64,000 nt of DNA from an uncultured Pelagibacteraceae bacterium (GTDB taxonomy: Bacteria > Pseudomonadota > Alphaproteobacteria > Pelagibacterales > Pelagibacteraceae), in contig CACBHY010000005.1 in the NCBI GenBank assembly GCA_902539165.1, positions 1-64,000 on the forward strand, read 5' to 3'. Below the pieces are notes generated by a model that saw nothing but the letters and a program-made list of their open reading frames with translations, made no database searches and was not told the DNA's origin. Positions 509 through 27,095 of the stretch are shown piece after piece (within the stretch, counting starts at the first letter, position 1; each line of letters opens with the position of its first letter). A program made the translations under genes and the position numbers.

Positions 509-967
509 TTAGTTTCTAACAATATTTTTACTATTAAGTTTATCTAGTTCTATGACCTTTGGATTTTGCGCGCTATGTGGATGATCATTTCCAGAATATA
601 TTTTAAGTTTAGTTAATTGTTTTCTTCCTAATACGCCTCCAGGCAACATCCTTTTTACAGCTAGCTTTAAAGTTTCGCCTGGTTTTTTCTCACTTAGCTT
701 TTCAGGTGTAGTTACTTTTATTCCTCCAGGATAACCAGTATGTCTATAATATTTCTTATCTTGAAATTTTTTACCTGTAAATTTTGCCTTTTCTATGTTT
801 TTAACTACAACGAAATCACCATCATCCATATTAGGTGTATAAGTAGTTTTATTTTTTCCTCTAATTATATTGGAAATAATAGTTGCAAGTCTTCCAACTA
901 CTGCATTCTTTGCGTCAATTTCGTACCAAGATGATGTAACTTGATCTTTTTTAGTGAATTTTGTCAT
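509..967 (-). CDS. rplM: 50S ribosomal protein L13
   Basis: Early-assembling large-subunit protein. Recognisable by WYEIDAKNAVVGRLATIIS near the start, then GDFVVVKN, KKYYRHTGYPGG and the AVKRMLPGGVLGRKQL segment. The frame is open upstream to 1078, but the family begins near MTKFTKKDQ, so I place the start at ATG 967 (153 residues). There is no clear Shine-Dalgarno before it; a candidate promoter at 978-1005 would give a leader of only a few bases. It is followed directly by rpsI. Confidence 0.95.
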   Translation of the reverse strand: MTKFTKKDQVTSSWYEIDAKNAVVGRLATIISNIIRGKNKTTYTPNMDDGDFVVVKNIEKAKFTGKKFQDKKYYRHTGYPGGIKVTTPEKLSEKKPGETLKLAVKRMLPGGVLGRKQLTKLKIYSGNDHPHSAQNPKVIELDKLNSKNIVRN

Positions 968-1005: not shown

Positions 1006-1112
1006 TTTTATATTTACCTTGTAAAATTGTCTTTATCTGATAAAAATATACTTGCCGATTTGATCCTATTGCGGGCATAAAACTGCTAAAATGGAAATCT
1101 TAACATAATCGG

Positions 1113-1167
1113 TAGGCATTTGAACTATATTGTGCACCTTACATTTAGTTAAAGCACTAAAAAGGAA
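1113..1167 (+). promoter_or_regulatory. SAM-V riboswitch controlling metY
   Basis: The leader of metY contains a compact H-type pseudoknot matching the SAM-V class of S-adenosylmethionine riboswitch known from marine bacteria, especially SAR11. The core begins TAGGCATTTGAACTATAT (1113-1130). GTGC (1132-1135) pairs with GCAC (1154-1157) to make the hairpin, and CCTT (1137-1140) pairs with AAGG (1162-1165) to close the pseudoknot. The second helix takes up the AAGGA Shine-Dalgarno, which ends 7 bases before the metY ATG (1174), so SAM binding should block ribosome access. Sequence, pairing and target gene agree. The class is established knowledge; ligand response here is inferred. Confidence 0.88.
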
Positions 1168-1173
1168 AGAAAA

Positions 1174-2499
1174 ATGACAAAAAAAAATCATCCAGAAACC
1201 ATAGCATTACATGGTGGTGACTATAGAAGCGACCCTACAACAAAAGCTGTTGCTGTTCCAATATATAGAACAACCTCATATGAGTTTGATAATACCGAAC
1301 ACGCAGCAAAACTTTTCGCATTAAAAGAATTTGGAAATATTTACACAAGAATAATGAATCCAACTAATGATGCCTTGGAAAAAAGAATTTCTGCTCTTGA
1401 AAGTGGTTTGGCTTGTGTAACTGTTTCGTCTGGTCAAACAGCTTCCTCTTTTGCTGTTTTAAATGTAGCTCAAGCAGGTGATAATATTGTAAGTTCTACT
1501 GATTTATATGGTGGGACTGTATCATTGTTTACTCACACACTTAGTAAACTTGGAATAGAAATTAGGTATGCTGATCCAAGTGATCCTAAAAATTTTGAAA
1601 AACAAATTGATGATAAAACTAGAGCATTTTATGGTGAAACTTTACCTAATCCCTATTTAAGAGTTTTTCCTATTCAAGAGGTTTCTAACATTGGAAGAAA
1701 ATATAATATTCCCTTAATTATGGATAACACAGCCGCACCTGTTATTTGTAAACCGATTGAACACGGAGCTAGTGTAGTAATACATTCTTTAACAAAATAT
1801 ATTGGTGGCCATGGTACAGCGATTGCGGGAAGTATTGTTGATAGTGGAAATTTTGATTGGACAGCAGATCCAAAAAGACAACCTTTATTTAATGAACCAG
1901 ATGCGAGTTATAACGGTGTGATATGGGGAAAGGCTGTGCCAGAAATGACAGGAGCAAATGTACCTTTTGCTGTAAGAGCAAGAGTGTGTTTACTAAGGGA
2001 TTTTGGATCTGCTTGTTCTCCAGATAATGCATTTTCGATAATACAAGGATTAGAAACTGTTGCGCTAAGAATGAAGCAGCATTGCAATAACGCTCAAGAA
2101 GTAGTGAATTTCCTAAAAAAACATAGTGAAGTTAAAAAAGTAATTTATTCTACAGAGCACGAAAAGTTCATTGCAGATAGAGCAAAAAAATATCTTAATG
2201 GTGGAAATGGTCCCATGGTTGGAATTGAATTAAAAGGTGGAATAGATGCTGGAAAGAAATTTATTGAATCGTTAAGAATGTTCTATCATGTAGCAAATAT
2301 TGGTGATGCTAGAAGTTTAGCTATACATCCTGCAAGTACTACTCATAGTCAACTTAATGATAGAGAACTTGAAGCGTCAGGTGTTACACAAAGTTACGTT
2401 AGACTTTGCATAGGCTTAGAACACATAGATGATATTATTGAAGACTTGGATCAAGCATTAAATAAATCATCTAAAGGAACTCTTAAAGCAGTTAGCTAA
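1174..2499 (+). CDS. metY: O-acetylhomoserine sulfhydrylase (homocysteine synthase)
   Basis: PLP enzyme of the Cys/Met metabolism family that joins sulfide to O-acetylhomoserine to give homocysteine, a direct route to methionine. The 441-residue length and opening ETIALHGGD with IYTRIMNPTND are typical of MetY rather than the shorter MetB/MetC enzymes. The PLP lysine is K208 in SLTKYIGGHGTAIAG; CIGLEHIDDIIEDLDQAL ends the protein. It stands alone on the plus strand behind a SAM-V riboswitch, which gives end-product control. Its end overlaps the convergent ctaA by 8 nt. Substrate choice (O-acetyl or O-succinyl homoserine) is inferred from family resemblance. Confidence 0.92.
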   Translation: MTKKNHPETIALHGGDYRSDPTTKAVAVPIYRTTSYEFDNTEHAAKLFALKEFGNIYTRIMNPTNDALEKRISALESGLACVTVSSGQTASSFAVLNVAQAGDNIVSSTDLYGGTVSLFTHTLSKLGIEIRYADPSDPKNFEKQIDDKTRAFYGETLPNPYLRVFPIQEVSNIGRKYNIPLIMDNTAAPVICKPIEHGASVVIHSLTKYIGGHGTAIAGSIVDSGNFDWTADPKRQPLFNEPDASYNGVIWGKAVPEMTGANVPFAVRARVCLLRDFGSACSPDNAFSIIQGLETVALRMKQHCNNAQEVVNFLKKHSEVKKVIYSTEHEKFIADRAKKYLNGGNGPMVGIELKGGIDAGKKFIESLRMFYHVANIGDARSLAIHPASTTHSQLNDRELEASGVTQSYVRLCIGLEHIDDIIEDLDQALNKSSKGTLKAVS

Positions 2500-27003: not shown

Positions 27004-27095
27004 TGGCGGAAGAGGAGGGATTCGAACCCTCGGTACAAGTTTCCTCGCACGGTCATTTAGCAAACGACTGGTTTCAGCCTCTCACCCACTCTTCC
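27004..27095 (-). tRNA. tRNA-Ser(GCU)
   Basis: Read on the minus strand the sequence folds as a class II tRNA. The acceptor GGAAGAG (from 27095) pairs with CTCTTCC, followed by G and an encoded CCA (ending at 27004). The anticodon arm is GTCGT-TTGCTAA-ATGAC, giving anticodon GCT, which reads AGC/AGU serine codons. A long variable arm and the T arm GAGGGTTCGAATCCCTC complete it. Length is 92. The CCA end touches the lytic transglycosylase stop codon with no spacer. Confidence 0.97.

Follow-up and report, generated by a model that had tools for sequence, protein, structure and literature searches.

The metY leader of this uncultured Pelagibacteraceae bacterium probably contains two consecutive pseudoknots that sense SAM: a SAM-V riboswitch that overlaps the metY Shine-Dalgarno sequence and, directly upstream of it where the mRNA is predicted to start, a compact SAM-II-type pseudoknot, hereafter element 1. 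SAR11 bacteria occur in large numbers in the ocean, and their set of regulators is small. The relevant features are listed below with their positions in the window, that is, the whole 64-kb stretch of DNA that was analysed.

509-967, minus strand: rplM, divergent neighbour, outside the switch (TIGR01066, 177.2 bits)
1019-1046, plus strand: predicted metY promoter (TTGTAA at 1019-1024, 16 nt, extended -10 TGaTAAAAA at 1038-1046)
1054-1096, plus strand: element 1, compact SAM-II-type pseudoknot
1054-1056 with 1074-1076, plus strand: element 1 P1, GCC:GGC
1058-1062, plus strand: element 1 third strand, AUUU
1064-1066 with 1093-1095, plus strand: element 1 P2a, UCC:GGA
1069-1073 with 1083, 1085-1086 and 1088-1089, plus strand: element 1 P2, UUGCG:C-n-GC-U-AA, U1087 bulged
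1105-1170, plus strand: SAM-V riboswitch (RF01826 match, fold after PMC6061858)
1107-1113, plus strand: anti-P1 segment AATCGGT of the linker, complement of element 1 bases 1054-1060
1114-1116 with 1137-1139, plus strand: SAM-V P1, C1117 and A1136 unpaired
1125-1126, plus strand: 5' strand of P2a, the helix closing the Shine-Dalgarno sequence (C1125:G1164, U1126:A1163)
1130-1135 with 1154-1157 and 1159-1160, plus strand: SAM-V P2, U1158 bulged
1141-1142 with 1148-1149, plus strand: SAM-V P3
1162-1166, plus strand: Shine-Dalgarno sequence AAGGA of metY, read from the sequence, 7 nt before the ATG at 1174
1174-2499, plus strand: metY, O-acetylhomoserine sulfhydrylase, the regulated gene (TIGR01326, 567.8 bits)

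The SAM-V riboswitch in front of metY is a true and already known element. RF01826 (Rfam 15), searched against the window, matches 1105-1170 with 76.5 bits (cut-off 41, E 8.6e-11), which is also the single SAM-V match found in the organism's own genome (92.9% complete). We aligned 78 distinct sequences, obtained by pattern from loci before metY, mmuM and other genes. Across P1, P2 and P3, 95.3% of 1014 cells are paired and six pairs show changes on both sides, compared to 53.3% or 18.9% of cells paired when the partners are slid by one column. P2 pairs in 99.8% of its cells, one pair occurring as GC in 61, AU in 15 and GU in 2 sequences; P1 pairs in 96.8%, with both-side changes in two of its four pairs. 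The nucleotides that contact SAM in the published crystal structure of a metY SAM-V (PMC6061858), namely U8, U9, A18, U20, U47, A48 and A50, correspond by our own mapping to U1119, U1120, A1129, U1131, U1158, A1159 and A1161. With a score above the cut-off, a covarying P1/P2 H-type pseudoknot and all SAM-contact nucleotides in place, the element belongs to RF01826, relatives of which bind SAM and leave SAH unbound (PMC6061858).

In that structure a short helix, P2a, touches the Shine-Dalgarno sequence, and we placed it in the window by transferring nt 14-15 and 52-53 of PMC6061858 with our own mapping. We call the SAM-V known because of this crystal structure and because a table for HTCC1062 lists SAM-V between rplM on the minus and metY on the plus strand (Meyer et al. 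2009, PMC2704228). The SAM-V of the window and the Candidatus Pelagibacter ubique metY SAM-V (RF01826; PMC2704228, PMC6061858) share the fold, the core letters, the gene, the rplM neighbour and the overlap with the Shine-Dalgarno sequence, but differ at the inner end of P1, where the window has C1117.A1136. Only one other of the 78 sequences likewise has no standard pair at this position, and the mismatch may weaken P1. Ahead of the third strand, the copy in the window is also two bases shorter than the HTCC1062-like copy L111.

The initial annotation had seen no tandem SAM-II element upstream. This is contradicted by the SAM-II-like pseudoknot at 1054-1096, and as far as sequence can tell the picture of a lone SAM-V appears to be wrong. 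The block GCCGATTTGATCCTATTGCGGGC...GCTAAAAnGGA, which in the window is 1054-1096, stands 5' of SAM-V in 61 distinct stretches recovered by a pattern search of the fetched loci. A first alignment of element 1 holds 52 distinct sequences; its outer P2 pair is G-C in 44, A-U in 7 and unpaired in 1. Both partners differ in seven cells, where shuffles that take no account of kinship give 1.1 on average, while two of five measures in these controls, pairs with both-side change and pair types, show no excess over shuffles. A broader alignment holds 99 sequences: 97 of 156 distinct ones (the first 93, as far as L204, plus four from further on) and the distant, model-found copies L226 and L227. Here 98.6% of 1089 cells are paired, and in 24 both partners have changed, whereas shuffles average 2.4 in a comparison that ignores kinship. 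These changes fall in all three helices: in P1, G-C to A-U in two and C-G to U-A in two; in P2, to A-U in nine and U-A in six; in P2a, to A-U in five. Further pair types show no excess in this alignment (302 of 500 shuffles are as high), and unpaired cells occur in P2a (10 of 297) and at the outer P2 pair (5 of 99).

Element 1 shares with SAM-II (RF00521, RF01726) the P1/P2 pseudoknot, the third strand AUUU, UAUUGC and GCUAAA, but its P1 has three pairs and its P1-P2 loop is very short. At permissive Rfam settings it scores 17.7 bits with RF01726 (cut-off 44) and 13.8 bits with RF00521 (cut-off 36). A joint scan of 20 loci put every metY and mmuM copy below the SAM-II cut-offs, the highest being L186 with 22.4 bits; a single metX element, L215, passed with 36.8 bits. 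Because of these scores below both cut-offs we use the label "SAM-II-type" and do not file element 1 as a SAM-II member, even though its P1/P2 pseudoknot covaries. Separately, SAM_alpha matches G000:C10:13701-13775 (L002 1501-1575, minus strand) with 24.9 bits (cut-off 36), 19 nt upstream of a metX-like ORF; this weak match is probably a genuine SAM-II of metX that scores under the threshold. A tRNA-Ser (gct) at 27004-27095 on the minus strand is the sole tRNA found in the window.

By our own mapping onto the SAM-V structure (PMC6061858), element 1 keeps the same letters at the positions of the SAM contacts: U1059, U1060, U1061, A1068, U1069, U1070, U1087, A1088, A1089 and A1090. Judging from these conserved contact letters, element 1 most likely binds SAM. 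They also argue against a real aptamer of this fold that senses another ligand of the methionine cycle, a reading for which reported variants of SAM aptamers that recognize spermidine (PMC10853860) provide a precedent and which we regard as improbable.

A covariance model built from element 1 sequences (R1) was used to survey the distribution of this SAM-II-type element. R1 scores 74.8 bits at 1052-1100 in the organism's own genome, where the next best match reaches 13.2 bits. In the order it matches 126 of 397 genomes at E<=0.01, some of which supplied sequences for the model, and SAM-V matches 190 of the 397 at E<=0.001. Across the class, R1 matches 8 of 385 genomes, three of them in the organism's own genus (G000 included). 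Three matches from another family of the class (L358, L360, L361) are compact SAM-II-type elements with P1 GCC:GGC, followed by a terminator and a metX-like gene. For the remaining two (L357, L359) no methionine gene could be recognised, and these may be chance matches. R1 also finds elements before metX in relatives, among them L215. The exact element pattern occurs in at least 120 stretches in named genomes; the 80 titles among the matches listed read Pelagibacteraceae, Pelagibacterales or Pelagibacter, and a search with one exact pattern returned no viral copies. Genome G126, which we infer to be HTCC1062 since its SAM-V positions fall within the intergenic regions given for that strain in PMC2704228, has element 1 at both metY and mmuM.

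Among 183 distinct element stretches, SAM-V comes next in 177 (146 before metY, 28 before mmuM, 3 unassigned); five stand before mmuM without an intact SAM-V, which in one of them (L198) has decayed, and one ends at a contig edge. These counts are not rates, since the loci were mostly fetched for SAM-V, metY or the element itself. The presence of CGATTT and GCTAAA in all 183 is forced by the search pattern. In most of the leaders inspected in relatives with about 76% identical MetY, either no copy of the two elements was seen or SAM-V was weak, at 42 to 54 bits (G025, G032 and G035); G020 of this group retains a good SAM-V at 69.9 bits. At L107, L109, L110 and L198, the SAM-V before metY or mmuM is weak or decayed and its core letters have changed, which suggests that the switch was lost in some lineages. 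At L226 and L227, an element-1-like block with P1 GUC:GAC precedes a metY-like gene, and no SAM-V was seen within the 220 nt inspected.

The linker between the two elements carries a complement of element 1 (AATCGGT, 1107-1113), and the 7-bp helix of 1054-1060 with 1107-1113 is part of the minimum-energy fold of 1054-1180 computed with a program that excludes pseudoknots. Its TCGG, complementary to CCGA at the start of element 1, occurs in 129 of 135 distinct metY linkers, against a mean of 1.5 in shuffles that keep base content only and ignore kinship. In 124 of the 129 it lies at a constant distance from SAM-V, and four of the six linkers without it have TTGG instead. TCGG is absent from most mmuM linkers; one of TCAA, TCGG and TTGG, a motif set picked after inspection, is found in 24 of 27, compared to a mean of 6.1 in shuffles of the same kind. 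A duplex energy test on single linkers gave a weak result (p<=0.05 in 24 of 135 metY and 5 of 27 mmuM linkers), less telling than these motif counts. The anti-P1 pair table covers 143 leaders selected by a motif that dictates pairs 2, 3 and 5 and, for the most part, also pairs 1 and 4. Seven metY-like SAM-V leaders without an element match (L029, L116, L117, L118, L120, L122, L130) have no TCGG, whereas L094 has TCGG before SAM-V despite having no element. Shared descent could explain the linker motif. The conserved anti-P1 complement suggests a fold that is mutually exclusive with element 1.

Both the linker complement and the contact letters are conserved, and element 1 is kept in some mmuM leaders whose SAM-V is lost or decayed. 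These observations speak against an element that folds without switching, either as a leftover or as a stabilising cap at the mRNA 5' end. Such an element would fit with the finding that element 1 has neither its own terminator nor its own ribosome binding site, and with the SAM-II part of the Candidatus P. ubique tandem, which did not respond to SAM in the full-length RNA (PMC11508383); we nevertheless find a non-switching role unlikely.

Across 173 distinct stretches, the sequence upstream of element 1 shows a sigma-70-like profile, with T, T and G at -34 to -32 (.98,.83 and.73) and TG at -15/-14. TAnA starts at -12, -13 and -14 in 129, 23 and 6 stretches (158 of 173 together), as counted at fixed offsets, since our first choice of the -10 had leaned towards a distance of 6. 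A simple consensus promoter scan did not list the site at 1019-1046. This profile predicts a metY transcript that starts near 1054 and opens with element 1.

This adjacency to a predicted promoter, and the many columns of element 1 that never vary, are what would be expected if SAM-V acted alone and the upstream block were a DNA-level site, be it an operator or a part of the metY or the rplM promoter. On the other hand, the block precedes mmuM as well as metY, which leads us to disfavour an rplM-related or operator site. Furthermore, its orientation with respect to the gene is constant, three helices carry both-side changes, and a variable loop between fixed ends is the pattern of a SAM-II pseudoknot. 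We therefore hold a DNA-level site to be decidedly unlikely.

How SAM-V closes the ribosome binding site had been read differently at the outset. The initial annotation placed its four strings correctly (GTGC 1132-1135, GCAC 1154-1157, CCTT 1137-1140, AAGG 1162-1165), and its assignment to the SAM-V class is borne out by the covariance-model score, the covariation and the published metY structure; Rfam, covariation and the same structure likewise support metY as the target and closure of its Shine-Dalgarno sequence. GTGC:GCAC is part of the real P2. The proposed closing helix CCTT:AAGG did not survive: its letters are complementary in the window, but the published closing helix is another one, and the 78 sequences contain no compensatory change. 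With the columns held fixed, pairing reaches 71.8% of the 312 cells and both-side changes are absent, as in shuffles. Slid by one column, 77.9% pair and 10 cells show both-side changes, a gain that arises because many leaders have one extra A. When each sequence is given its own register, pairs form in 261 of the 312 cells; apart from lost G's, only the 5' side varies, so that nothing is compensated. The CC of CCTT forms the 3' strand of SAM-V P1 with GG 1115-1116; the crystal structure puts these two C residues in P1 (PMC6061858), and P1 covaries. CCTT:AAGG was accordingly rejected as the switch helix, and we consider it extremely improbable that it closes the ribosome binding site.

The arrangement in the window resembles the SAM-II/SAM-V tandem before bhmT (PMC9481103, PMC11508383, PMC5069961) in that a SAM-II-type aptamer lies directly upstream of SAM-V. 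It differs in the genes, metY and mmuM, in the compactness of the aptamer and in the terminator: according to a review, the original 120 tandems always have an intrinsic terminator after SAM-II (PMC9481103), whereas none was found between the elements in the window and one was found among 173 distinct leaders (L189). At L189 (G436:C10), and also at L206, element 1 is followed by an intrinsic terminator, SAM-V and then metY, a layout that may bridge the terminator-type tandem and the arrangement in the window.

In the parts of the literature available to us, which include PMC2704228, PMC5069961, PMC9481103, PMC4239095, PMC6429828, PMC2864571 and PMC11508383, no report of an aptamer upstream of a metY or mmuM SAM-V was found, and it is likely but not certain that element 1 is absent from print. 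For Candidatus P. ubique, these papers place SAM-II before bhmT and metX, and a tandem before bhmT. One SAM-II is mentioned for the SAR11 strain HIMB5 (PMC6429828), and details of new SAM-II forms are given in the supplement of PMC2864571. metY and mmuM are each credited with one translational SAM switch (PMC2704228).

We tentatively propose, as a conjecture we would back at somewhat less than even confidence, that metY and mmuM mRNAs of SAR11 bacteria begin with a terminator-free minimal SAM-II-type aptamer whose competition with the linker couples it to SAM-V or sets the mRNA level. The reading of two successive SAM sensors, which we hold to be probable, works as follows: SAM binding would lock the P2 triplex of SAM-V together with the short helix that closes the metY Shine-Dalgarno sequence, a closure that has been shown for relatives (PMC6061858). 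Without SAM, the linker would pair with the 5' strand of element 1 P1 and open element 1; in the presence of SAM, the element 1 pseudoknot would hold and leave the linker free. The output of element 1 that we favour would be the amount of metY mRNA, through elongation or decay, while SAM-V would set translation; alternatively, element 1 might act on the folding of the adjacent SAM-V.

Published expression data for HTCC1062 bear on this proposal. In sulfur-limited exponential cultures, metY and mmuM mRNA rise 7.14- and 6.08-fold, and in the control stationary phase 9.78- and 5.22-fold (PMC5069961). Because the control stationary phase rises too, the increase is only compatible with our model, and it could also follow from translation alone.

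An additional aptamer at the start of the mRNA would provide a testable explanation for the six- to sevenfold rise of these mRNAs under sulfur limitation. Furthermore, since the current family models place this compact SAM-II form below their cut-offs, tandem SAM sensing is perhaps undercounted. If the proposal is true, a large part of the genus would use a new, terminator-free double SAM switch that the Rfam models have missed.
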